From Laspinema palackyanum D2c (GTDB taxonomy: Bacteria; Cyanobacteriota; Cyanobacteriia; Cyanobacteriales; Laspinemataceae): a stretch of 64,000 bases of DNA. Made by a program: the position numbers and the translations under genes. The DNA lies in NCBI RefSeq assembly GCF_025370875.1, contig NZ_JAMXFD010000016.1:62001-126000 (forward strand), written 5' to 3'. Shown in pieces: positions 14,984 to 31,136 of this stretch (the first letter of the stretch is position 1; the number at the start of each line of letters is the position of its first letter). The notes beneath the pieces were generated by a model that had not been told where the DNA came from, ran no database searches, and saw nothing but the letters and a program-made list of their open reading frames with translations.

Positions 14984-15032
14984 CCCGCGCAGGCGGGCTT
15001 TGTTTGTATAGCCCCAGGCTTTAGCCTGCGGG
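14982..15032. repeat. Double-hairpin repeat overlapping the 3' end of nifJ
   Basis: AGCCCGC / GCGGGCT (14982-14999) is followed by TTTG, then CAGGCT-TT-AGCCTG (15015-15028). Related copies lie at 43991-44045 and 48371-48430. The second hairpin contains the nifJ stop codon. Confidence 0.7.
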
Positions 15033-18000
15033 GGCTGCGGGGGCTGCGGGGGCTGCCCCTGGGGGCGCTACCGCAGCATCCCCATTGTGAGTTTCCAGGT
15101 GGCGGGAGGCGAGATATTCATACATCTGCCAACGAGTGTCAATGTCGTTTTGGGCTTCTTCCAATAACCGCTTGGCATCAGCGGGTTTGGTTTTGGTCAA
15201 CATCTTGAATCGGTTCTCGTTGTACATGGAATATTCCACCCCTTTCTTGGGCGATCGCATATCCAATTGCAACGGATTCTTACCTTGTTCCACCAAATCC
15301 GGGTTATAGCGATACAATAACCACCGTCCCGCTTCTACAATTTCCTTCTGGTGATTCATGGCGGTAACCATGTTGATGCCGTGGGCGATACAGTGGGAAT
15401 AGGCGATAATTAAGGACGGTCCGTCATACGCTTCGGCTTCTAGGAAGACTTTCAGGGTATGTTCGTCTCGCGCCCCCATTGCGACGCTGGCGACATATAC
15501 ATTCCCGTAAGTCATGGCAATTAAGCCGAGGTCTTTCTTAGCAGCGGGTTTGCCACCGGCAGCGAATTTAGCAACCGCACCCCGTGGGGTGGCTTTGGAG
15601 GCTTGTCCTCCGGTGTTGGAGTAGACTTCGGTATCTAGGACGAGGATATTGACATTTCGTCCGGAGGCGATGACGTGATCTAAGCCACCATAGCCGATGT
15701 CATACGCCCAACCGTCTCCCCCGATAATCCACACATCTTTTTTGACGAGGTAATCGGCAATACTGGCAAGTTGTTTGGCATCTGGGGAGTTCATCCCTTG
15801 TAATTTTTCTTTGAGGGCTGCGACGCGATCGCGTTGTTCCCAGATGTCGGCTTCGGATTTCTGGGTGGCATTGAGAATGCCGGTAACTAGGTTATCCCCA
15901 ATCTCACTACTGAGTTTTTGCAGTAATTCGGCGGCGAATTGGGCTTGTTTATCGATGGAAACCCGGAATCCTAGACCGAATTCGGCGTTATCTTCAAACA
16001 GGGAGTTGGACCATGCGGGTCCCCGTCCTTCAGCGTTTTGCGCCCAAGGGGTGGTGGGTAGGTTGCCACCATAGATGGAGGAACAGCCGGTGGCATTGGC
16101 GATGACGCTGCGATCGCCAAAGAGTTGGGAAACTAACTTCAGATAGGGGGTTTCGCCACATCCGGCACAAGCCCCGGAGAACTCGAATAAGGGTTCTTGG
16201 AGTTGTTGTTGACGAATGCGATCGAGATGCAATGTGCGGCGATCGGGGTTGGGTAAGTTCATGAAGAATTCCCAGTTTTCCCGTTCGGGTTCCCGCAGCG
16301 GAATCTGCGGTTCCATGTTAATCGCTTTCAGGGATGGCATGGATTTATTCTTGGCGGGACAAACTTCGACGCAGATACCGCAGCCGGTACAGTCTTCCGG
16401 GGAGACTTGAATGGTAAACTGAGTTCCGGCAAAGTCTTTATCTTTGGTATCCGTTGCCTTGAAGGTTGCCGGTGCATTCGCTAGTTCTGCCGGTTCGTAG
16501 ACTTTCCCTCGGATGACGGCATGGGGACAAACCATGATACATTTGCCGCATTGCACGCAAACATCCGGGTCCCAAACAGGTATTTCCGTGGCAATATTCC
16601 GTTTTTCCCATTTGGACGTAGCAGTGGGATAAGTACCATCACAAGGTAAGGCACTCACGGGCAAACCTTCCCCTTCTTTCACCAACATTTTGCCTTCGAC
16701 TTCGCGCACAAATGCCGGGGCTAAATCTGGAACAGCAGGTTGTTTGTGGATAGGACTGCTGGCTTGTCCGAGGGGAACTTCAAACAGGTTCGCCAAGGTA
16801 TTATCCACCGCTTGCAGGTTCATGCGGACAATTTCTTTCCCTTTTTTGCCGTAGGTTTTCTCGATCGCCTTTTTGATTTGGGCAATGGCTTCGTCCCGAG
16901 GTAGAACTCCGGCTAAGGCGAAGAAACAAACCTGCATGACGGTATTAATTCGTCCACTCATGCCACTCTCGCGAGCAACTTTGTTGGCATCAATAGTATA
17001 GACTTTTAAGCCTTTGCGGACGATTTGTTCTTGGGTTTCAATGGGGAGTTGATTCCACACTTCCTCAGCAGGATAGGGGCTATTTAAGAGGAAAATGGCC
17101 CCCGGGGCGGCTGCACTTAAAACGTCTAATTTTTCTAGGAAAATCCACTGATGACAGCCGATAAAGTTGGCTTGTTCAATCAGGTAAGTGGAACGAATCG
17201 GCTGGGGTCCAAACCGCAGGTGGGAAATGGTAATCGCCCCGGATTTTTTGGAGTCATAGACAAAGTAGCCCTGGGCATAATTGTCTGTTTCTTCCCCAAT
17301 AATTTTAATGGAGTTCTTGTTCGCCCCGACGGTGCCATCGGACCCTAATCCATAGAACATTGCCCGAACAACGCTATCGGGTTCCGTGGAGAAGTTGGGG
17401 TCATAATCTAGGGAGGTGTGAGTGACATCATCATTGATGCCGATGGTAAAGTGATTTTTGGGTTTAGCTTGGCTGAGATTATCGAAAATGGCTTTTACCA
17501 TTGCCGGGGTAAATTCCTTGGAGGATAAGCCATAGCGCCCTCCGACGAGTTTCGGCAAGCTGTCTCCCGCCCATTCTTCATGCAGGGCGGTGACGACATC
17601 GAGATACAAAGGGTCACCTCCGGCCCCAGGTTCTTTGGTACGATCTAAGATAGCGATCGCCTTAACGCTTTCCGGGATAGCGGCAACTAAGCGTTTCATA
17701 TCCAAGGGGCGATACAGTCGCACTTTCAAAACGCCGACTTTTTCCCCTTGGGCGTTCAGATAATCCACAGTTTCATGGACGGTTTCGCAACCGGAACCCA
17801 TTAAGATAATCAGGCGATCGGGGTCTGGTGCACCGTGATACTCGAACAGTTGATATTTACGTCCCGTGAGTTCCCCAAACTGGTCCATTGCCTGCTGTAC
17901 GATGTCGGAACAGTCGGTATAGAAGGGGTTGACCGTTTCCCGGGCTTGGAAATAAACATCGGGGTTTTGGGCAGTACCGCGTAAGACAGGGCGATCGGGA

Positions 18001-18629
18001 GTTAAGGCGCGATCGCGATGGGCGAAGACTCCAGCATCATCAATCAGCGATCGCAGGTCCTCATCCTCTAACAGTTCTACTTTCTGGATTTCGTGAGAGG
18101 TCCGGAACCCATCAAAGAAGTGAATGAAGGGAACGCGAGATTTCAAGGTCGCGGATTGGGCAATTAAGGCGAAATCATGGGCTTCCTGGACCGAGGCGGA
18201 ACATAACAGGGCAAATCCGGTACTACGGACCGCCATCACATCACTATGATCGCCAAAAATAGACAGGGCCTGGGCTGCCAGCGATCGGGCGGCAACGTGA
18301 ATTACTGCACAAGTGAGTTCCCCGGCTATTTTGTAGAGATTGGGGATCATTAATAGTAATCCCTGAGACGCGGTAAAGGTAGTGGTGAGGGAACCTGTTT
18401 GCAAGGACCCATGTACTGTTCCCGCAGCCCCCGCCTCACTTTGCATTTCTACCACCGAGGGAATGGTTCCCCAGAGGTTCGGACGCCCTTCGGACATCCA
18501 GGCATCCGCCCATTCTCCCATCGGTGAAGCGGGGGTAATTGGATAAATAGCAATGACTTCATTTAATTTATACGCAACCTGGGCAACGGCCTCGTTTGCG
18601 TCGAGAGTCGCAAATGTTCTTGTACTCAT
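15021..18629 (-). CDS. nifJ: Pyruvate:ferredoxin (flavodoxin) oxidoreductase
   Basis: 1202 residues, the single-chain homodimeric form. It oxidises pyruvate with CoA to acetyl-CoA and CO2 and reduces ferredoxin or flavodoxin in the cytosol under dark or anoxic conditions. Order of parts: pyruvate-binding domain (YPITPASPMGEWAD), the gamma-type domain, a two-cluster ferredoxin segment (CVQCGKCIMVCPH and CTGCGICVEVCPA near 690-760), then the thiamine diphosphate domain with CAGCGETPY, GGDGWAYDIGYGG and the DTEVYSNTGGQ segment. The last ~20 residues are Ala/Pro-rich (GAAPAAPAAPAG) and end inside a dispersed repeat, so the natural tail has probably been replaced. AAAGG precedes the ATG. Upstream lie hyp and hox genes on the same strand. 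Confidence 0.95.
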   Translation of the reverse strand: MSTRTFATLDANEAVAQVAYKLNEVIAIYPITPASPMGEWADAWMSEGRPNLWGTIPSVVEMQSEAGAAGTVHGSLQTGSLTTTFTASQGLLLMIPNLYKIAGELTCAVIHVAARSLAAQALSIFGDHSDVMAVRSTGFALLCSASVQEAHDFALIAQSATLKSRVPFIHFFDGFRTSHEIQKVELLEDEDLRSLIDDAGVFAHRDRALTPDRPVLRGTAQNPDVYFQARETVNPFYTDCSDIVQQAMDQFGELTGRKYQLFEYHGAPDPDRLIILMGSGCETVHETVDYLNAQGEKVGVLKVRLYRPLDMKRLVAAIPESVKAIAILDRTKEPGAGGDPLYLDVVTALHEEWAGDSLPKLVGGRYGLSSKEFTPAMVKAIFDNLSQAKPKNHFTIGINDDVTHTSLDYDPNFSTEPDSVVRAMFYGLGSDGTVGANKNSIKIIGEETDNYAQGYFVYDSKKSGAITISHLRFGPQPIRSTYLIEQANFIGCHQWIFLEKLDVLSAAAPGAIFLLNSPYPAEEVWNQLPIETQEQIVRKGLKVYTIDANKVARESGMSGRINTVMQVCFFALAGVLPRDEAIAQIKKAIEKTYGKKGKEIVRMNLQAVDNTLANLFEVPLGQASSPIHKQPAVPDLAPAFVREVEGKMLVKEGEGLPVSALPCDGTYPTATSKWEKRNIATEIPVWDPDVCVQCGKCIMVCPHAVIRGKVYEPAELANAPATFKATDTKDKDFAGTQFTIQVSPEDCTGCGICVEVCPAKNKSMPSLKAINMEPQIPLREPERENWEFFMNLPNPDRRTLHLDRIRQQQLQEPLFEFSGACAGCGETPYLKLVSQLFGDRSVIANATGCSSIYGGNLPTTPWAQNAEGRGPAWSNSLFEDNAEFGLGFRVSIDKQAQFAAELLQKLSSEIGDNLVTGILNATQKSEADIWEQRDRVAALKEKLQGMNSPDAKQLASIADYLVKKDVWIIGGDGWAYDIGYGGLDHVIASGRNVNILVLDTEVYSNTGGQASKATPRGAVAKFAAGGKPAAKKDLGLIAMTYGNVYVASVAMGARDEHTLKVFLEAEAYDGPSLIIAYSHCIAHGINMVTAMNHQKEIVEAGRWLLYRYNPDLVEQGKNPLQLDMRSPKKGVEYSMYNENRFKMLTKTKPADAKRLLEEAQNDIDTRWQMYEYLASRHLETHNGDAAVAPPGAAPAAPAAPAG

Positions 18630-22086: not shown

Positions 22087-22875
22087 TCATGAGATTGTGC
22101 TGACTGGCGACTTTTTCAAATGCTGTTGTAAATACCCATACCACTCGGTCATTCCTTGTCCTTTGCGGGAAGAAACTTCAAAAATTGTCGCTTGCGGGGC
22201 CATTTTTCTAATATTCTCTAACGCCTTCTCCCGGTCAAACTCCACCGCTTCGGCAAGGTCAATTTTACTAATAATCACCACTTGCGCGGATTTAAACATG
22301 GTCGGATATTTCAAGGGTTTGTCTTCCCCTTCCGTCACCGACAACAACACCACGCGCAAATCTTCCCCTAAATCGTATGCCGCAGGACAAACTAAATTTC
22401 CGACATTTTCAATCACCAATACATCTAACCGATCTAAATTCAGTTGTTGGGCCGCTTTCAAGACCATATCCGATTCTAAATGGCAGACGGTTCCCGTGGT
22501 AATTTGGACGGTGGCGGCCCCACTATTACTCAAGCGAACGGCATCGTTATCGGTTTCTAAGTCTCCGACAATGATGCCGGTGGGGATGCGACTGCCGATA
22601 TCCTGAACCATCCGTTCTAAGAAGGCAGTTTTCCCAGAACCCGGAGAAGAAAGCACATTCAAAACCAGCAAATTTTTAGCCATAAAATAGCCCCGATTTC
22701 GTTCAGCAAGGCGGTCATTTTTGGCTAAAACTGCTTGTCCCACTGCAATAGTTTGATGGGTGTCATGATGATGATGGTGATGGCCATTTTCATGACTGTG
22801 ACTATGGCCATTTTCATGACTGTGACTATGGATTCCGACTTCTCCGACGACGCTGCATCCGCAATTAGTACACAT
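22087..22875 (-). CDS. hypB: Hydrogenase nickel-incorporation GTPase HypB
   Basis: 262 residues. The N-terminal MCTNCGC is the high-affinity nickel motif. Residues 16-40 are a His-rich nickel store made of a duplicated SHSHENGH unit and a run of six His. The G domain follows: SPGSGKT at 77-83, [21 protein letters not shown] and SKIDLAEAV. It hydrolyses GTP to place nickel into HoxH together with HypA. The start is three bases after the hypA stop. Confidence 0.96.
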
Positions 22876-22878
22876 CAG

Positions 22879-23220
22879 TTAGGAAACCTCCAAGGATGTT
22901 AACTCGATTTCTTGTCCGCTTTGAATATGAGGGGTGAGTTGATGACAATGGGGACATTCATAGAACCAATCCATCGGTTCAAAGTCCCGATCGCAAGTAG
23001 GACAGTGACAAATCACTGGAACTCGTTCAATTTCAAATTCTGCCCCTTCGGCGATCGTCCCTCGGGTCACCACATCAAAGGCAAATTCTAAGGCATCTGG
23101 AACCACCCCAGATAAGTCACCCACTCGCATTTTTAGGCGATGAATTTTGCTGGCATTTTGCGCTTTAGCACAATCTAAAGCAATATTCAAAGTGTTTTCC
23201 ATCAAACTAACTTCATGCAT
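22879..23220 (-). CDS. hypA: Hydrogenase nickel-incorporation protein HypA
   Basis: 113 residues from ATG 23220, giving the canonical MHEVSLMENTL start whose His2 binds nickel; an upstream in-frame ATG at 23250 is rejected. The zinc site is the two-pair type: CHCPTC and CPHC in the C-terminal third. It delivers nickel with HypB. The start overlaps the end of hoxW by 19 bases, which implies coupled translation. Confidence 0.95.
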   Translation of the reverse strand: MHEVSLMENTLNIALDCAKAQNASKIHRLKMRVGDLSGVVPDALEFAFDVVTRGTIAEGAEFEIERVPVICHCPTCDRDFEPMDWFYECPHCHQLTPHIQSGQEIELTSLEVS

Positions 23221-23741
23221 AATCCCCCCGCTTCTTTCTCTTCCCCCCATCCCCCAGTCTCAATCAAGTTTGCGATCGCCACTAATGCCTCCGCCATGCC
23301 TTTTTCAGTGACAGCAGAAAACGTATCCCCAAACTCGAAATCCATCGCCGGAATTGCCACTAACCACCCTTCAGGGGCCTTGCCATAGAGGGTTTTAGCG
23401 AGGATGAGAAGGGATGAAGGGTCGCTACTATGGCCTAAACTTTGGGGAGAGATGGAGTCATCATCGTTGAGTTTGACCACTTGTAGTCCTTGTTCAGCAG
23501 TGGCAGGATAGGCATCGATAAAGATTGCCAAGTCTACCTCAGACAAGGGTTCGGCCAATTCTGGGGTGAGTTGATGTTGCGACAGCGATCGCACCTTGGG
23601 TAATCCCCAGGATGCCACTTCTTCCGCCACCCGTTGTCCTACGCCGTCATCGCGACGCAGGTCATTTCCGTATCCGATCGCCAAAATTGCCAGAGACTCC
23701 TGTTGGATTGACAGCATTTTATTAATTTGATTCTCTAACAA
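23202..23741 (-). CDS. hoxW: Bidirectional hydrogenase maturation endopeptidase HoxW
   Basis: 179 residues of the M52 (HyaD/HycI) family. Visible: IGYGNDLRRDDGVGQRVAEE with the nickel-binding acidic residue, then FIDAYPA and a conserved region with LGHSSDP. It clips the HoxH C-terminus after nickel insertion. An internal Met (23717) is an alternative start. It overlaps the phosphatase gene upstream by 7 bases and hypA downstream, so all belong to one transcript. Confidence 0.9.
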   Translation of the reverse strand: MLENQINKMLSIQQESLAILAIGYGNDLRRDDGVGQRVAEEVASWGLPKVRSLSQHQLTPELAEPLSEVDLAIFIDAYPATAEQGLQVVKLNDDDSISPQSLGHSSDPSSLLILAKTLYGKAPEGWLVAIPAMDFEFGDTFSAVTEKGMAEALVAIANLIETGGWGEEKEAGGLCMKLV

Positions 23742-24895
23742 TATTCTAACGTAACTTCTTTCTGTTTGTCCCGCAAAAACTTCACCACTTCCTCCACTAA
23801 ACTACGGCGAATTGAAATATTCTTCGGCAGCAAGGGATTCTGATAAAATTCATTAATCTTTTGTCCCACCATAAATAAAATCGAATCCGCTTGTAAGATT
23901 TCTTTCGCCAACAACACGGATCCATTTTGGTCTGAGGGTAACCGGGTAATATCACAGTTGCAATTTTTCAGAACTTCCAGACATTTGGACAGGGTTAAAA
24001 TTCCTTCGGTGACCAAATCAATGGCACTTAATTTGCCAATCGGGGGTAAGTCACGCCGCATGGTTGAAATATCCATTTCGATGGTTTCTCCCAGATATTT
24101 GGCGACAATATTTCCCGTTGTCCCGCCACAAACCACTTTGCGTCCTTCAAACGTTAGCAAGCGTTCCACATACTGTGGGTCATGACTATTATCTAACGGT
24201 GGACCCGTGAAAATCATTAACGGATTGCGTTGGCGAACATAAACCCCGACAAAGGTTGCATCATCTCCTATTTTTCCCCCATAGAGAGAATAGGTTTCGG
24301 CGATGGTTTTTTGGACAATTCGTCTGGCATTTCGCGTCTGAGTTAGAAAGAGTCCTTCTATATAGTGGGCCACATTATCCCATCCCCACCCGAAATTTAA
24401 GGCCACCCCTAAACCAGCGTAGAGGACCCCATCACTCATACATCCTAAAAAGTCTCCTTCTTTGAGACGGCCTTCATAAACAGTAATTTTTTTTTCTAAA
24501 ATCTTCTCGGTTTTCCCGTCTAATTTGACTAATTTGCCTTGGTCAAAATACAAGGGAGGCGGATTGTCAAAATTGATAACTTTAAACAGGTCCGTATGGT
24601 TATCGATTTGTAAAATCGTAAAGGTCGCGTATGCAATCTTTCGGACTTGACAAATCGGTAAAGTCCCAATAACGGTTTTAATCACTTCCTCTAACGGGAC
24701 ATCCTCATTCAGCATGGAAATGAGAATTTCTGTGGTAAGAGTAGCGAGAATATTCGCTTTAACCCCACTGCCTAATCCATCGGAAAGGACAATAGTGGTT
24801 TTCTCCGGAGTCTTGCGAAACCGGACGCGATCGCCGCAGAGTTCTTCTCCTTTTTTGTTTAAACTTAAATCAAAAATATCTAAGAAACTATCCAT
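23735..24895 (-). CDS. SpoIIE-family (PP2C-like) protein phosphatase with a C-terminal extra domain
   Basis: 386 residues from ATG 24895 (GGGAG upstream); an ATG at 24916 would add seven residues. The PP2C-type metal residues are present: GDR (Asp22), SDGLGSG (Asp39), MSDGV (Asp155) and GDDAT (Asp211/212). The C-terminal ~150 residues form a second domain beginning IFTGPPLDNSHDP and containing VVCGGTTGNIVAKYLG and DLVTEGILTLSK. I recall similar two-part proteins beside [FeFe] hydrogenase genes of Firmicutes, from memory and unverified. It probably dephosphorylates a Ser/Thr phosphoprotein in response to its PAS and [2Fe-2S] neighbours; that is inference. The target is unknown. Confidence 0.85.
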   Translation of the reverse strand: MDSFLDIFDLSLNKKGEELCGDRVRFRKTPEKTTIVLSDGLGSGVKANILATLTTEILISMLNEDVPLEEVIKTVIGTLPICQVRKIAYATFTILQIDNHTDLFKVINFDNPPPLYFDQGKLVKLDGKTEKILEKKITVYEGRLKEGDFLGCMSDGVLYAGLGVALNFGWGWDNVAHYIEGLFLTQTRNARRIVQKTIAETYSLYGGKIGDDATFVGVYVRQRNPLMIFTGPPLDNSHDPQYVERLLTFEGRKVVCGGTTGNIVAKYLGETIEMDISTMRRDLPPIGKLSAIDLVTEGILTLSKCLEVLKNCNCDITRLPSDQNGSVLLAKEILQADSILFMVGQKINEFYQNPLLPKNISIRRSLVEEVVKFLRDKQKEVTLEYC

Positions 24896-24896
24896 G

Positions 24897-25403
24897 CTAA
24901 AGCGTCTCCCTTTCAACCAGTTTCAGAATTTTTAATAAACTGACTTTGGTTTCCGCTGTAGTTTCTCCCAGCAACCCGGCAATTTCCTGGGCGACTTTCA
25001 TCTGGTTATCCACCACTTCATTCACTTTGGCAACGGTTTCTCGCTTCAGTTCAAATAACTCTTTCTTCCGTTGCCACTCGTCCGTAATATCCACCATGAT
25101 GCAGGCGATCGCATTCTGGTCTCGAATTGAAAACAGGACCTGACGCACATACAGATTGTACTTGGGATATTCTTTCTCTTTCCCCCGAATTACTTCATTC
25201 TTTTCCCAGACTCGTTGAAACTCATCCACCGTCCCCAACAACTCAACTGCCGGTTTCCCCACCATTTCCTCTGCCGTTACATTAAACATTTTGCAAAATG
25301 CTGGATTAACAACGGCGATCGTCATCTCCTTATCCAAGACAATCAATCCATTTGGGTCGTACTCCCACAGGAGTTCCCACAAGGTCTTTTCACTAGATAC
25401 CAT
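24897..25403 (-). CDS. PAS-domain signalling protein without kinase domain
   Basis: 168 residues. Residues ~10-115 form a PAS domain (LIVLDKEMTIAVVNPAFCKM, then AEEMVGKPAVELLG, closing with ACIMVDITDEW). A helical coiled-coil tail follows, rich in Glu, Lys and Val. There is no histidine kinase, GGDEF or other output domain. It can therefore only act by binding a partner, most simply the phosphatase whose start lies at its stop codon. It may sense redox, oxygen or a small ligand; no haem- or flavin-binding residue is certain. The three-base gap to the [2Fe-2S] gene upstream indicates an operon. Confidence 0.85.
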   Translation of the reverse strand: MVSSEKTLWELLWEYDPNGLIVLDKEMTIAVVNPAFCKMFNVTAEEMVGKPAVELLGTVDEFQRVWEKNEVIRGKEKEYPKYNLYVRQVLFSIRDQNAIACIMVDITDEWQRKKELFELKRETVAKVNEVVDNQMKVAQEIAGLLGETTAETKVSLLKILKLVERETL

Positions 25404-25405
25404 TG

Positions 25406-25672
25406 CTATTGAACCACTGCTAAAATACTGGGTAAAATTTCGTCGCTGAACTTAGACTCGATATTTTCTGGGTTAATTTGGGTGAATACTTTCTCCTTAA
25501 ATTTCATAACAATTCCCACACTACAAGTTTCCAGACAAAACGACCCTTTCAGTTCAATTTTGTCCTGTAGTTCATACCGAACAATCAACTCCTGGAGTTG
25601 AGGCAGTACCTCATACACTCCCAGTTGATGACAAGCAGAACCCATACATAAATAGAGATTTTCTTTGGTCAT
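25406..25672 (-). CDS. Thioredoxin-like [2Fe-2S] ferredoxin protein
   Basis: 88 residues. Four cysteines in the pattern of thioredoxin-like [2Fe-2S] ferredoxins and NuoE/HoxE C-terminal domains: Cys9, Cys14, Cys46, Cys50 (LYLCMGSACHQ and GSFCLETCSVG). The small size suggests a dedicated electron carrier or redox sensor. It is the first gene of the triad before the PAS protein and the phosphatase. A repeat-rich element separates it from hoxH upstream. Confidence 0.85.
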   Translation of the reverse strand: MTKENLYLCMGSACHQLGVYEVLPQLQELIVRYELQDKIELKGSFCLETCSVGIVMKFKEKVFTQINPENIESKFSDEILPSILAVVQ

Positions 25673-25767
25673 AATGTCTCCAATTTCGGTTATTTTTTCA
25701 CCGATTTGGACCGAATCTGGCTTTTAAAAACCTGAAATTTTAGAATGAAACAGCCCTACCCTCACTT

Positions 25768-26028
25768 CCGGTCCCCTCCCCTTGGCAAGGGGAGGGTTAG
25801 GGTGGGGTGTTGGCGTTGACGCGCTTAAGCGCGTCAAGGAAGAATGGGTGGGTGGACCGTCATAGTGAGGGGTGATCGGCACCTGTATAGAGGTTGGACC
25901 AGCTTCTATACAGGTGCTTAAACCGTTAAGAGTGAGTGACGTGGCGGTAAGCGCAGCTATCCCGTAGGGAATCGCCAGGTTAAGAGGACCCCACCCTAAC
26001 CCTCCCCTTGGCAAGGGGAGGGGACCGG
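25768..26028. mobile_element. MITE-like nested-palindrome element between hoxH and the [2Fe-2S] gene
   Basis: About 261 bases bounded by inverted copies of the CCCTCCCC repeat (25768-25809 and 25988-26028). Inside lie a perfect 20-base palindrome (TGACGCGCTT / AAGCGCGTCA, 25817-25836) and a hairpin with a perfect 12-bp stem (CACCTGTATAGA, 25880-25891, with its complement at 25905-25916). No open frame with recognisable content and no transposase. I did not find clear target-site duplications. Confidence 0.55.
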
Positions 26029-26043
26029 ACGTATCACCTCCAA

Positions 26044-27468
26044 TTACTGCCGATATACTTGATTTACCACGGTCCCTTTCGCATCAATTAATTCAATATG
26101 CAACGGCATTTGACCCGCTGCATGGGTGGAACAACTCAAACAAGGGTCAAAGGCGCGAATCCCCGCTTCCACCCGGTTCAACATTCCTTCTTGAATCTCA
26201 TTATTATGAATGAAATGCTGGGCAATTTGAGTCACCGTTTTATTCATCGCCAGGTTGTTTTGTCCCGTCGCAATAATCAGGTTTACCTTCTTAATTAACC
26301 CATTTTCATCCACCTTATAATGATGGAATAAAGTACCCCGAGGTGCTTCGCTGACCCCAACTCCTTCTAGGTTATTAATCCCAGCAGTTGCACGAGTTCG
26401 GGGGGAAACAATATCCGGGTCATTGACCAATTGTTCGATATGTTCAATGGCACAGAGAATTTCAATTAATCGGGCATAATGATAGTAGAAGGAAGAGGTT
26501 GCAACCCCACCGGCCCGATCGCGAAATTCTAGCAACTCTCTATCCGCTGCCTCGGTTCCCATCCGACTACAGATATTCACCCTTGCTAAAGGTCCAACCC
26601 GATAAATGCCATTCGGATATCCCAAGGGTTTATAATAGGGAAATTTCAGATAAGACCAGGGTTCGACTGCTTCACCAAGGTAGGATTCATAGTCATCTTC
26701 GCTGAGATTGTCGGCAACAATATTGCCATCACTATCAGTAAAGCGAATCTTGCCATCGTAATGTTCCCAGAGTCCATCTTTCCCCACTAACCCCATAAAT
26801 AAGGAGGGGAATTTGCCAAAGGTTTCGACTTCTGTAGAAAAGCGGTCTAGGAGAGTTTTAAATAGACCTAAAGCGGTTTCAATGGTTTGCCGAGATTCCG
26901 GGAGGCGATCTCGAATCCAGGTGCAACTTTCTTCGGACAAGGGCGATCGCACCCCACCGGGAACCGCCCAAGAGGGGTGAATCTTTTTCGCCCCTAACAG
27001 TTCAATTATTTTTTGTCCAAACTGCCGTAAGCGAATCCCACTTCTAGCTAAATCCGGGTCTGCGGCAATCAATCCGAAGACATTTCGTTTCGCGGGGTCG
27101 CTATCCCATCCTAACAGAAAATCTGGACTACTCAGATGGAAGAAACTCAAGGCATGAGACTGAGTAATCTGGGCCAAATTCATCATCCGGCGCAATTTTT
27201 CCCCGGCAATAGGAATTTTGACCGCTTGAATTTTATCCCCGGTTTTGGCCGAGGCGAGGAGGTGGGACACGGGACAGATTCCGCAAATCCTAGCGGTAAT
27301 TCCGGCCATTTCCCACATGGGACGACCTTCGCAAAATTTCTCGAATCCGCGAAATTCGACGACGTGGAAGCGGGCATCTTCGACTTCTCCGGCATCGTCT
27401 AAATAGACGGAGATTTTGGCATGACCTTCAATACGGGTAACTGGATCGATGACGATTGTTTTAGACAT
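26044..27468 (-). CDS. hoxH: Bidirectional [NiFe]-hydrogenase large subunit HoxH
   Basis: 474 residues from ATG 27468, giving [19 protein letters not shown]. It holds the NiFe active site, bound by [10 protein letters not shown] (Cys62, Cys65) and DPCLSCSTH (Cys443, Cys446). Beyond His449 a ~25-residue tail is the extension that HoxW removes. With HoxY it interconverts H2 and protons, linked through HoxEFU to NAD(P)H or ferredoxin/flavodoxin, as a fermentative outlet and electron valve when light returns. Gap to hoxY is 78 bases. Confidence 0.97.
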
Positions 27469-27546
27469 ATTAGTAACCACTGATTTCACTAAGTTTCACG
27501 GAGGGGGAGAGAGGGGAATGAGGGTCTCTCTCCTCGGTGAATTGGG

Positions 27547-28095
27547 TTATCCGAATTTAATCATAGGACGCCCTTTCATTTCGGGTAATTCACCCCGGAG
27601 GAGGGGTTCCACGGTTGCGAGAATGCGTTGGGCGGAAGGGGGACAACCGGGCATAAACAGATCGACATCGACGACTTCATGAACGGGACGGACGCGATCG
27701 AGGAGTTCGGGGACGATGCCGGGAAAATGGGGAAGTTGGCGGGTTTCGTCGCTTAATTCTAGGTAGCAACGTTTGAGGACGGTTTCCGCTTTTCCTAACA
27801 TATTTCGCATCCCCGGAACGTTGGCAGTTACGGCACAATCTCCGAAGGAAATTAGGAATTTGGTGCGTTTTCTCGCCTCAATCAGCAGTTCCATATTTTC
27901 CTCGTTGGCGACGGCCCCTTCTACGAGGCAAACATCGACGTTTTCGGGATATTCTTTGATATCAGAGGCAACGGGACTAAAGACGATATCGACTTTTTCG
28001 GCGAGTTCAATTAACCATTCGTCTAGGTCCAGAAAGGACATATGGCAACCGGAACATCCACCTAACCAAACGGTCGCGAGTCTTATCTTGTCCAT
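27547..28095 (-). CDS. hoxY: Bidirectional hydrogenase small subunit HoxY
   Basis: 182 residues from ATG 28095, preceded by AGGGAG; the longer frame upstream is an artefact. Cysteines for the proximal [4Fe-4S] cluster are in [18 protein letters not shown] (Cys14, Cys17), GDCAVT and MPGCPPS. The short length is typical of the bidirectional Hox type. Its start overlaps the end of hoxU by 13 bases. Confidence 0.95.
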
Positions 28096-28799
28096 TGTTT
28101 GTTCTCCCTGGCATTCACGATAAATTCTAATTTGTTGCGATCGCGAGTCATTTCGGCAACGGTAGAACCCTTGCGGAAAATTGACCCAGTTGGACAAGCT
28201 TCGACACATTTACCACAACTGGTACAGGCATCAACGGTTCCCCAAGGTTGATTTAATCCAGTGACAACTTTGGCCGCTGCCCCTCGAAAGGCCACATCCC
28301 AAACATGAGCCCCTTCGATTTCATCACAAACTCGGACACATCTTGTACAGAGGACGCAACGATTGTGGTCAATGCCAAATTGTGGATGGGAAATATCAAT
28401 TTCTCTTTCCGGAAATCGATAGGGAAATCGACTGTGATCCATGCCGACTTCAATCGCTAAATCTTGCAGTTCACAGTTCTCATTGGCAACACAAACGGCA
28501 CAAACGTGATTGCCTTCAGAAAACAGCATTTCTACAATCATTCGCCGATATTCTTGCAGGCGATCGCTGTCTGTGGTGATATCCATTCCTTCTGCAACTT
28601 GCGTCACACAGGAAGGCAACATTTTATTCACCCCGGCAATTTCCACCAAACACAACCGACAAGCGCCCACATCGGTAATCCCGTTCAGATGGCAGAGGGT
28701 GGGAATCCGAATCCCTGCTTCCTTGGACGCATCCAGAATGGTTGTCCCCTCTTCGATCGCGAGGTCAACTCCATTAATTTTTAAAGTGACGACTGACAT
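28083..28799 (-). CDS. hoxU: Bidirectional hydrogenase diaphorase subunit HoxU
   Basis: 238 residues. N-terminal plant-type [2Fe-2S] domain ([18 protein letters not shown], then SCV), then a His/Cys segment ([15 protein letters not shown]), then a two-cluster ferredoxin domain ([11 protein letters not shown] and [16 protein letters not shown]). It equals the N-terminal part of complex I NuoG and passes electrons between HoxF/HoxE and HoxY. The gap to hoxF is 68 bases. Confidence 0.96.
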
Positions 28800-28867: not shown

Positions 28868-30502
28868 CTAGGAGGTGATGGATGCCGCTGTCCCTGCCGG
28901 AACTTTCCCATTAGGACTGTCTTTCAACAGGGTCAAATACTCCTCGCGGAAGTAGCGCAAGGTACTCATCACCGGGTTCGGGGCCGTCATTCCTAACCCG
29001 CACAAACTGGTGTTTTTCACCATGTCACACAGTTGTTCGAGTTTCACAATATCCTGCAAAGTCGCCTCTCTATTCAGGATTTTGGTCAGCATTTGATACA
29101 TCTGCACCGTCCCCGCCCGACAGGGAATACATTTCCCACAGGTTTCACCCCGGCAGAACTCCATATAAAATCGGGCCACTTCCACCATGCTGGTCTTTTC
29201 ATCCATGACCACCATGCCGCCAGACCCCATCATAGACCCGATTTTCACCAGGGAATCGTAATCCACTGGCGTATCTAACAAGGATGCTGGAATACAACCC
29301 CCAGAGGGTCCGCCGGTTTGTACCGCTTTGACTTTACCATTGGGGACACCCCCGCCCATTTCTTCGACAATCTCACGCAGGGTAATCCCCATCGGGACTT
29401 CGATGAGTCCATTATTGCGAATCTGACCCGTGAGGGCAAAAACTTTGGTTCCCTTACTCTTTTCGGTCCCAATTCCCGCATACCACGCGCCGCCTTCGCG
29501 GATAATCGCCGGAATATTAGCAAAGGTTTCCACGTTATTAATTAACGTCGGCGACTTCCAGAGTCCTTCTTGGGCGGGATAGGGTGGACGAGGACGGGGA
29601 TTGCCGCGTCCCCCTTCAATGGATTGAATTAATGCGGTTTCTTCCCCGCAAACAAAGGCCCCGGCCCCAATTCTAATCTCGATTTTAAAGTCAAAGGGGG
29701 AATCAAAAATTTGACTACCGAGAATCCCGTATTTTTTCGCTTGTTTAATCGCCTTTTGCAACCGTTCGATCGCCAGGGGATATTCTGCCCGCACATAAAT
29801 ATATCCCTCACTGGCCCCGATCGCATAGGCAGCGATCGCCATGCCTTCTAACACCCGATGGGGGTCACTTTCCAACACCGACCGATCCATGAATGCACCG
29901 GGGTCGCCTTCATCAGCATTGCAGATCACATACTTCTGCTGTCCCGGCATTTTCGCCACCGTCGCCCACTTCAACCCAGTAGGATATCCACCGCCACCGC
30001 GTCCCCGCAATCCACTCTTACTCACCTCATCAATGGTTTCCGAGGGGGTGAGGTCATGAATTGCTTTATACAGGGGTTCATATCCCCCAACGGCGATATA
30101 TTCCTCAATCCGTTCCGGGTCAATTTTCCCACTGGTTTCCCGGACAATCCGCATCTGCCGCGCAAAAAATGGATGTTCCGGGTCTCCTTCTGCTGCGCTT
30201 GCGGTCCCGCCTGCGATCGCCTCAATAATACTCGCCGCATCATCCGGGGTCACTTCTTCATATAGCTTGTTCTGGGCCTCAATTTGGACCAACGGCCCTC
30301 GCCCACAAAATCCCATACAACCCACGCCCACCACTTGGACGCGATCGCCCATCTTCTTCTCTTTACAAGTATTTTCTAAATTCTTCTTGACGCCGAGGGA
30401 GTTCGCCGCCTGACATCCCGTGGAGGTACAACAATGTACCCGGATGGGTTTCTGGGCAGTCCGTTCCTTCTCGCCAATCTCCCTAAGTTCCGCTAAATCC
30501 AT
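28868..30502 (-). CDS. hoxF: Bidirectional hydrogenase NAD(P)H-binding diaphorase subunit HoxF
   Basis: 544 residues. N-terminal thioredoxin-like [2Fe-2S] domain (CCTSTGCQAANS, CMGFCGRGP), then the NuoF-like core: GLRGRGGGGYPTGLKW for NADH and FMN, the EGDPGAFMDRS region, FVCGEETALIQSIEG, and the cluster site GETCGKCIPCRAGT with a later CGLG. It exchanges electrons with NAD(P)H. Gap to hoxE is 91 bases. Confidence 0.96.
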   Translation of the reverse strand: MDLAELREIGEKERTAQKPIRVHCCTSTGCQAANSLGVKKNLENTCKEKKMGDRVQVVGVGCMGFCGRGPLVQIEAQNKLYEEVTPDDAASIIEAIAGGTASAAEGDPEHPFFARQMRIVRETSGKIDPERIEEYIAVGGYEPLYKAIHDLTPSETIDEVSKSGLRGRGGGGYPTGLKWATVAKMPGQQKYVICNADEGDPGAFMDRSVLESDPHRVLEGMAIAAYAIGASEGYIYVRAEYPLAIERLQKAIKQAKKYGILGSQIFDSPFDFKIEIRIGAGAFVCGEETALIQSIEGGRGNPRPRPPYPAQEGLWKSPTLINNVETFANIPAIIREGGAWYAGIGTEKSKGTKVFALTGQIRNNGLIEVPMGITLREIVEEMGGGVPNGKVKAVQTGGPSGGCIPASLLDTPVDYDSLVKIGSMMGSGGMVVMDEKTSMVEVARFYMEFCRGETCGKCIPCRAGTVQMYQMLTKILNREATLQDIVKLEQLCDMVKNTSLCGLGMTAPNPVMSTLRYFREEYLTLLKDSPNGKVPAGTAASITS

Positions 30503-30593: not shown

Positions 30594-31136
30594 CTACTTG
30601 ATCCATCCTTTAATATGTTCGAGTGCTTGTTCCGAAGTCTGCTTACCAGCAACGGTTCCGTCATACACCACCACCGGCGCAATTCCACAGGCCCCAACAC
30701 ATCGGGCGGTGATTAAGGAAACCTCGCCATCTGCCGTGGTTTCCCCTTGCTGAATCCCCGTCTGTTTCTCCAGGGATGCGAGTACCTCACCCCCTCCTTT
30801 CACATAACAGGCGGTTCCCAAGCAGACCACGCAGGTATGTGATCCACTGGGTTTCAGGGAGAACAAATGGTAAAATGTCGCTACTCCGTAAACCCGACTT
30901 AACGGCAGTTTCAGATTCCGCGCTACATAGAGTAATACATCTTCTTCCAGATACCCAAACGCTTCCTGAGCTTTATGGAGTACCTCGATTAGCGCATCTT
31001 GCCGATACTGGTTCCGCTTCATCGTGATATCCAGGACCTTAAAGCGCTTATCCCCACTGGGATGCTCCGTTGCCGCTTTTTTTTCCTTCGGGTCTGATTT
31101 TTCGTGTTCGTCGCTCTTTGCCGCAGTTGATTGCAT
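30594..31136 (-). CDS. hoxE: Bidirectional hydrogenase subunit HoxE
   Basis: 180 residues. A charged N-terminal extension of about 35 residues precedes a NuoE-like helical part ([20 protein letters not shown]) and a thioredoxin-like [2Fe-2S] domain with [12 protein letters not shown] and [11 protein letters not shown]. It is the first hox gene transcribed, so the promoter of the hoxEFUYH unit should lie in the 31137-31800 region. Confidence 0.95.

Follow-up and report, generated by a model that had tools for sequence, protein, structure and literature searches.

The ferredoxin, PAS protein and phosphatase beside the [NiFe] Hox genes of Laspinema palackyanum as a putative H-cluster-free relative of the HydS sensory module

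In the 64,000-nucleotide stretch of the Laspinema palackyanum D2c genome analyzed here (contig NZ_JAMXFD010000016.1, positions 62,001 to 126,000; hereafter the window), three genes encoding a small ferredoxin (fdx), a short PAS protein and a SpoIIE-type phosphatase lie among the genes of the [NiFe] hydrogenase Hox. Judging from sequence comparisons, this triad is the signalling part of an operon of the HydS sensory [FeFe] hydrogenase type, with the H-cluster domain absent and [NiFe] Hox in the place of the [FeFe] enzyme. We propose that it is probably an H-cluster-free relative of the HydS/phosphatase module that accompanies [FeFe] hydrogenases of fermenting bacteria, attached to Hox in a minority of cyanobacteria, in which the ferredoxin and the PAS protein would gate the phosphatase according to redox state and thereby tune Hox and fermentation. 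An earlier note on this DNA had interpreted the triad as a sensing chain linked to hox and similar to genes beside [FeFe] hydrogenases; the linkage and the likeness both stood, while the correspondence of the PAS protein to the tail end of HydS had been missed. The elements of the triad are the following:

25406..25672, minus strand: fdx, thioredoxin-like [2Fe-2S] ferredoxin of 88 residues, Cys 9/14/46/50 (open reading frame, Pfam, alignment, PDB match)
24897..25403, minus strand: short PAS protein of 168 residues (PF13426, AlphaFold2 model, comparison with the HydS C-terminus)
24936..25016, minus strand: helix tail motif of the PAS protein, residues 130-156, VVDNQMKVAQEIAGLLGETTAETKVSL, common to HydS (conservation; putative coupling role)
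23735..24916, minus strand: SpoIIE-type PPM serine/threonine phosphatase of 393 residues, listed with a TTG start (PF07228, alignment, AlphaFold2 model)
23738..24223, minus strand: C-terminal alpha/beta domain of the phosphatase, about residues 232-393, GGTT at 264-267 (alignment, AlphaFold2 model)

A Pfam scan of the short PAS protein placed PF13426 above its cut-off and found neither an output domain nor a kinase domain, nor the H-cluster domain PF02906, in the 168 residues, in agreement with its first description as a PAS protein devoid of output. When a profile built from 27 HydS C-termini was run against the genome of the window, this protein scored 163.4 bits and the next of the 61 matches 30.0; using the window protein itself as the query, the next best match in its own genome reached 21.5 bits. 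The AlphaFold2 model (predicted local distance difference test, pLDDT, 88) showed a PAS fold at about residues 8-105 followed by a single long C-terminal helix (residues 107-167). On these grounds we regard the protein as the counterpart of the C-terminal PAS-plus-helix part of HydS, lacking the Fer4, H-cluster and FeS domains.

Conservation was analyzed in an alignment of 23 rows shorter than 250 residues (21 of them genuine, since L072 and L125 are HydS pieces cut by contig ends) and 66 HydS rows, the latter excluding L108 and L128; rows of 250-400 residues (L104 and L114) belonged to neither set. Few residues of the PAS core were kept across short and HydS forms, N33 being the best, and twelve positions of the C-terminal helix (Q134, M135, Q139, I141, A142, L145, G146, E147, T149, A150, K153 and L156) were present in all short rows and in 82-98% of the HydS rows. 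In a selection of 46 rows N33, A142, L145, G146 and E147 were invariant. The helix motif QMxVAQEIAxLLGETTAETK was thus the best conserved part of both forms. A stretch that is better conserved than the sensor domain, with or without a hydrogenase attached, would be explained most simply as the contact with the partner that both forms share, the phosphatase, and the 27-residue motif is therefore our candidate for the element that couples the two proteins.

The phosphatase matched PF07228 (SpoIIE) over residues 38-225 with 65 bits, above the cut-off, and the aspartate positions of the SpoIIE family were aligned and retained (D29, D46, D162 and D218/D219); presumably these are the metal-binding residues. 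No Pfam family was matched by approximately residues 230-393, the part containing VVCGGTTGNIVAKYLG. A full-length alignment of 50 sequences had 37 invariant columns spread over both domains, in support of the initial view of a SpoIIE phosphatase with a second conserved domain. In the AlphaFold2 model (pLDDT 90.5) the best fold match found by Foldseek was the SpoIIE phosphatase 5mqh (E 3.4e-15), and no separate match for the C-terminal domain was seen among the 50 of 985 Foldseek matches listed, which are PP2C proteins as far as can be told from their descriptions. The first strand of the model begins at residue 10, implying that the enzyme has no N-terminal linker helix of its own. Its predicted activity, that of the SpoIIE/RsbU-type PPM family, is the dephosphorylation of serine/threonine proteins. 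The PAS protein and the phosphatase were encoded by separate genes in all cyanobacterial loci read. An apparent fusion of the two in L075 (a 575-residue frame) was discarded, as its additional N-terminus seems to be the PAS gene upstream read in a different frame.

The ferredoxin scored 20.8 bits against PF01257, under the cut-off of 24.8, and Cys 9, 14, 46 and 50 were retained in 36 of 36 cyanobacterial sequences; its description as a four-cysteine thioredoxin-like ferredoxin stands. The 36 sequences of this and of the PAS alignment come from pooled sets whose genomes may overlap. The best PDB match of the ferredoxin was a stretch of the alpha subunit of an [FeFe] hydrogenase (7p5h, E 2e-7), a family search revealed a weak resemblance to HoxE, and a relative of fdx adjoins HydS in many [FeFe] operons.

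These operons came from a scan of bacterial genomes, of which we examined the best 80 of at least 571 confirmed loci, a sample in which forms close to the window are over-represented. It comprised six cyanobacteria, followed by Armatimonadota, Chloroflexota, KSB3, Verrucomicrobiota, Fusobacteriota, many Bacillota and others. Many loci had the order fdx - HydS - phosphatase. Often HydA came next, or else genes that match hoxE/F/U and that we read as HydABC; the likeness to Firmicutes [FeFe] loci to which the earlier note pointed is thereby confirmed and sharpened. Among the more distant kin within the window's own phylum (described below), neighbour proteins were scanned or read in four loci (L050, L052, L054 and L058). 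There the phosphatase gene is preceded by one for a protein of about 570 residues, and the three of these proteins scanned with Pfam contained Fer4, the PF02906 H-cluster, PF04060 FeS and PAS domains, the composition of a sensory [FeFe] hydrogenase of the HydS type. In L050 the HydS-type gene comes after a small ferredoxin, and the phosphatase is followed by another protein with PF02906. A minority of loci (L065-L070, L081 and L124) carried a short PAS protein of 163-187 residues in place of HydS, so that H-cluster-free forms of the module also exist in other phyla. Two Desulfomonilaceae carried a long PAS protein, and the one scanned (L128) combined Cache and HAMP domains with a receiver domain and lacked an H-cluster. 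Four loci (L072, L104, L114 and L125) were relabelled as HydS because of contig-end cuts or split frames, and L061 is labelled "none" in the row set although a PAS gene lies 562 bases upstream. The set of phosphatase rows leaves out L129 and 15 of the 18 loci L021-L038, and the L075 protein was cut to its last 395 residues. In some Bacillota a gene of about 249 codons stands upstream of fdx-HydS (L117:7165-7914, L136:6197-6946 and L129:282-1028); the one protein scanned, that of L117, matched APH/kinase-like families and might possibly be a kinase opposing the phosphatase.

Among cyanobacteria the module is tied to hox. Of 388 genomes searched from the class to which the window belongs, 27 had the phosphatase (E below 1e-100) and 127 had hoxH, all 27 falling within the 127 (hypergeometric 1e-14, kinship ignored), and in a draw of 386 genomes from the phylum the 12 with a strong phosphatase match were all among the 87 with hoxH. 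The co-occurrence with hox had no exception in the genomes searched, in support of the linkage claimed from the window alone, and the converse, that the triad is a general component of hox loci, is ruled out by the 27 of 127; G229, which has hoxH and none of the three genes, implies in addition that a genome can have Hox without the triad. Pooling both draws gave 30 phosphatase-bearing genomes. All 30 contained fdx, the PAS gene and the phosphatase gene, and in 26 the three were contiguous (the window, seven loci of a first reading and 18 of a second). This recurrent order, together with the co-occurrence with hoxH, excludes a chance neighbourhood. In 21 of the 26 hoxH lay in the same stretch. 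The domain PF02906 had no match in the 14 cyanobacterial genomes searched for it, 12 of them triad-bearing, that of the window included. Pairwise distances also correlated with those of HoxH (phosphatase r 0.84, PAS protein 0.82, ferredoxin 0.65; 25 loci, with 0 of 2000 permutations as high), so the triad does not evolve independently of hox; for hoxF the value was 0.75 (23 loci). Such a correlation shows common inheritance, not contact.

The order was broken up only in family f9, where the triad genes occupied two places in G187, G109 and G119 and three in G151, all of them being retained; in G187 and G151, two of the four genomes with a broken-up operon, the ferredoxin adjoins hoxH. In two members of this family (its loci being L046-L049 and L139-L145), G109 and G119, the phosphatase has retained a hoxW-like neighbour, and hoxH comes after a frame of about 1080 codons.

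Several observations weigh against the interpretation of the triad as a redox-gated module acting on Hox. The triad genes do not form one operon in these 4 of 30 genomes, and hoxH was outside the stretch read in 5 of the 26 contiguous triads. Searches of L066, L067 and L069 yielded no ferredoxin, and none was seen ahead of the PAS gene of L081, so that it may be dispensable. No anti-sigma or STAS partner was recognised, 8 of the 62 unnamed operon open reading frames having been scanned. In the window itself, a gap of 371 bases with a strong palindrome stands between hoxH and fdx, and their co-transcription is not assured. In the related system of Thermoanaerobacterium, singly deleting hfsC or hfsD had no significant effect on adhE expression (PMC5707799), and overexpression of hfsD alone was sufficient for the ethanol phenotype in a strain lacking hfsABCD (PMC11837493), which implies that the parent system can at times dispense with the phosphatase. 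The 5 of 26 triads with no hoxH in the stretch read would also suit a general partner-switching or stress module located by chance in or near hox loci, as would the abundance of SpoIIE-type domains in the genome of the window (13 matches). We consider such a bystander very improbable, given that 27 of 27 phosphatase genomes have hoxH, that G145, in which hoxH, the PAS gene and fdx were unmatched and the phosphatase was not among the matches, differs from its congener G187, which carries them all, and that relatives of the triad sit in hydrogenase operons of other phyla.

How the module reached cyanobacteria was addressed with the phosphatase. In the phylum draw 153 of the 386 genomes gave a match within a threshold of E 0.001. 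Twelve of these matches were strong (E below 1e-100) and fell in the order or class of the window, namely its own and 11 others with 65-71% identity. A further 8 were weak (E between about 1e-4 and 1e-3), and 133 came from distant kin at 30-38% identity, nearly all from family f31, which we take to be the gut Vampirovibrionia. The nearest relatives outside were from Armatimonadota, with 58% identity versus the 30-38% of this other class of the phylum. In a tree of 85 rows (18 of 103 having been dropped), cyanobacteria formed one group of 16 rows (support 100/99). This group was enclosed in one of 22 rows (99/96), to which Armatimonadota, Chloroflexota, KSB3, Verrucomicrobiota and Fusobacteriota contribute phosphatases that have a short PAS protein as neighbour. 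Rows of the other class of the phylum were placed in a different part of the tree, on long branches. In a tree of 42 chosen rows, with the two longest left out, the main short-PAS group of 16 rows had a support of 93/84 and was not starred. Approximately unbiased (AU) tests on this tree gave p 0.067 for a clade of cyanobacteria and the other class, and p 0.24 for a single origin of all H-cluster-free forms, so that neither is rejected. Inheritance from an ancestor common to both classes is thus disfavoured by the larger tree, without a firm rejection by the AU test. The patchy distribution and the proximity of Armatimonadota make transfer from outside the better, though not proven, reading, and the suggestion that the genes were acquired as a block is accordingly plausible, even if vertical descent is not firmly rejected. 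The p of 0.24 and the lowered support of 93/84 leave room both for loss of the hydrogenase part from HydS and for its gain.

A working model can be proposed from these relationships. The PAS protein would act as a dimer, its long helix providing in trans the coiled-coil lever that RsbU and RsbP carry in one chain with their phosphatase. The redox state of the [2Fe-2S] ferredoxin would report electron pressure during dark fermentation and change the state of the PAS protein, this would switch the phosphatase, and dephosphorylation of some serine/threonine protein would adjust Hox and the fermentation enzymes (the pyruvate:ferredoxin oxidoreductase PFOR/NifJ and AdhE). The behaviour of hfsB mutants in Thermoanaerobacterium suggests, by analogy, that the sensor may hold the phosphatase back until triggered. 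So conceived, the triad looks like an RsbP-like device split into two proteins; its signal, its direction and its substrate are what we infer.

An alternative is that Hox itself stands in for the H-cluster domain, docking with the pair of ferredoxin and PAS protein so that H2 turnover at the [NiFe] site is sensed and the enzyme becomes its own sensor. The ferredoxin does resemble the [2Fe-2S] stretch of an [FeFe] subunit and, weakly, HoxE; not one of the 30 phosphatase genomes lacked hoxH; fdx stays next to hoxH in two of the four broken-up operons; and divergence is correlated with that of HoxH. Common descent alone would explain this correlation, however, general redox sensing fits the data equally well, and the docking is purely hypothetical. 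Moreover, [FeFe]-type hydrogenase genes stand beside the short-PAS form in L068, L070 and L081, so that nothing specific for Hox is built into it. A strict dependence of this form on Hox is likewise unsupported, in view of those neighbours and of 5 of 12 non-cyanobacterial genomes in which PF00374 had no match, several of these being metagenome-assembled genomes (MAGs), the short PAS being unproven in some and L093 being cut by its contig. The genomes of L066, L067 and L069 had Hox-like [NiFe] genes on other contigs (HoxH identities of 49%, 68% and 51%); in the Verrucomicrobia MAG of L067 (stretch L178) hoxE/F/Y/H were 60-72% identical to those of the window, and contamination is possible. We consider Hox as its own sensor unlikely. 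It is likewise doubtful that Hox passes electrons through the ferredoxin to a PAS protein that replaced HydS, the module having moved between two unrelated hydrogenase classes.

The PAS protein could otherwise bind a cofactor or ligand of its own (flavin, haem or a metabolite), with the ferredoxin as a separate carrier for Hox and the phosphatase answering to oxygen, energy or light. The two best Foldseek matches of the PAS model were short LOV proteins, and Cys37 was present in 36 of 36 cyanobacterial PAS proteins. On the other hand, the protein of the window contains no histidine, and no LOV-type motif was seen by eye, no search having been aimed at it. The presence of fdx in many HydS operons, and with the PAS and phosphatase genes in 30 of 30 cyanobacterial genomes, speaks against a separate role for the ferredoxin, and we think this alternative quite unlikely. 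A redox-gated phosphatase, with the ferredoxin as part of the sensor, is the reading we retain.

The link to fermentation that this reading includes has parallels in gene neighbourhoods and in published genetics. A search of 119 stretches with AdhE as the query placed a relative near the phosphatase in 10: L062 (Spirulina subsalsa; confirmed as AdhE by Pfam), L054 (on the other strand), L055, L070, L083, L103, L117, L121, L135 and L136. In G474 (L153) AdhE is found between hoxH and fdx. The nifJ gene was near the triad in L059, L064, L154, L160 and L161, on the other strand in L162, and on the strand of the triad in the window. In Thermoanaerobacterium, deletion of hfsB, encoding a PAS-containing [FeFe] hydrogenase, or of hfsA increased adhE transcripts and ethanol, and hfsC and hfsD were reported as necessary for a high ethanol yield (PMC5707799); HfsC is described as serine phosphatase-like (PMC11837493). 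For Ruminococcus albus it was proposed that a sensor of group C, which has a putative phosphatase subunit, acts on the expression of hydrogenase and alcohol dehydrogenase according to H2 (PMC6776011). HydDB lists the [FeFe] group C3 as "phosphatase-linked (putative)" sensory hydrogenases, with their role undetermined there (PMC5037454). As for the switch itself, a coiled-coil linker activates the phosphatase of RsbU, and the PAS-bearing RsbP is predicted to behave alike (PMC12143880).

The minus-strand order in the window is hoxE-hoxF-hoxU-hoxY-hoxH, the 371-base gap, the ferredoxin, the PAS protein, the phosphatase, hoxW, hypA and hypB, and its open reading frames bear out the placement of the three genes between hoxH and hoxW on one strand. 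The neighbouring features are:

30594..31136, minus strand: hoxE (NF005747, 287.7 bits, cut-off 224)
28868..30502, minus strand: hoxF (translation read, not family search)
28083..28799, minus strand: hoxU (translation read, not family search)
27547..28209, minus strand: hoxY (translation read, not family search)
26044..27489, minus strand: hoxH, [NiFe] hydrogenase large subunit (family search)
25764..26032, no strand: repeat-derived palindromic element between hoxH and fdx (inverted-arm, fold and genome-copy counts)
23202..23741, minus strand: hoxW maturation protease (TIGR00072, 55.6 bits, cut-off 47.45)
22879-23250, minus strand: hypA (translation read, not family search)
22087-22875, minus strand: hypB (translation read, not family search)
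15021..18629, minus strand: nifJ, pyruvate:ferredoxin oxidoreductase, beyond hypC (open reading frame, Pfam)

Within the triad the spacing is tight: fdx and the PAS gene are 2 bases apart, and the likely ATG of the phosphatase (24895) lies 1 base from the PAS stop. The palindrome has 45-base inverted arms with 179 bases in between, the 371-base gap as RNA gave a fold z of -8.9, and a 20-base core of the palindrome had 36 copies in the genome versus 0 for the reversed control. In another Laspinema locus (L064) 185 instead of 374 bases separate the matched ends of hoxH and fdx. In the locus of Laspinema olomoucense the phosphatase is 98% identical to that of the window and the other matched genes 90-98%. 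Other genes were also seen among or near hox genes. L040 (14149-15798) and L041 have a 549-codon gene between hoxF and hoxU; in L040 it encodes a hybrid cluster protein (PF03063), and such an arrangement has been published for Lyngbya. A gene for a CBS-CP12 protein lies among or near hox in the triad-bearing loci L039 (13145-13762; Pfam), L059 and L153 (both by BLAST), a possible tie to NAD(P)H/ATP status.

With respect to known systems, the closest is the [FeFe] group C3, which shares with the triad the phosphatase family with its extra C-terminal domain, the PAS-plus-tail, often a small ferredoxin, and the gene order. The triad differs in lacking the H-cluster, Fer4 and FeS domains and in being linked to [NiFe] Hox rather than to [FeFe] HydA/HydABC; that the HydS loci compared belong to C3 is our own reading. 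The hfsABCD genes of Thermoanaerobacterium and hydS of Ruminococcus albus also combine a PAS sensor and a serine phosphatase in a hydrogenase cluster with a link to adhE, although their sensor is an [FeFe] hydrogenase, the comparison being one of order and description only. RsbU and RsbP of Bacillus subtilis share the PPM phosphatase, a PAS or other sensor and the helical linker (PMC12143880), whereas in the triad the PAS-helix and the phosphatase are separate proteins and the latter has a second C-terminal domain. The regulatory [NiFe] hydrogenase system HoxABCJ likewise ties a signalling protein to hydrogenase control (PMC5707799), and HoxJ bears PAS-like sequence (PMC8163306); it possesses, however, its own sensor hydrogenase and the HoxJ/HoxA pair, while the PAS protein of the triad has no kinase domain. 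In titles and abstract openings, among which subscription papers and preprints are few, neither phosphatase-based control of Hox nor such a module in a cyanobacterial hox locus appeared, no match combined hoxH with SpoIIE, and the word phosphatase was absent from the passages of hox papers examined.

The phosphatase-linked HydS sensor was already known, and what appears to be new is an H-cluster-free form of it beside a cyanobacterial [NiFe] Hox. In these natural H-cluster-free versions the PAS domain, its tail, the ferredoxin and the phosphatase have been kept although no hydrogenase is built in. They dissect a little-understood module and point to the 27-residue helix motif as the likely contact with the phosphatase. 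The setting of Hox activity in dark anoxia is of practical interest for H2 production. Should Hox be its own sensor after all, one signalling module would have shifted between unrelated classes of hydrogenase.

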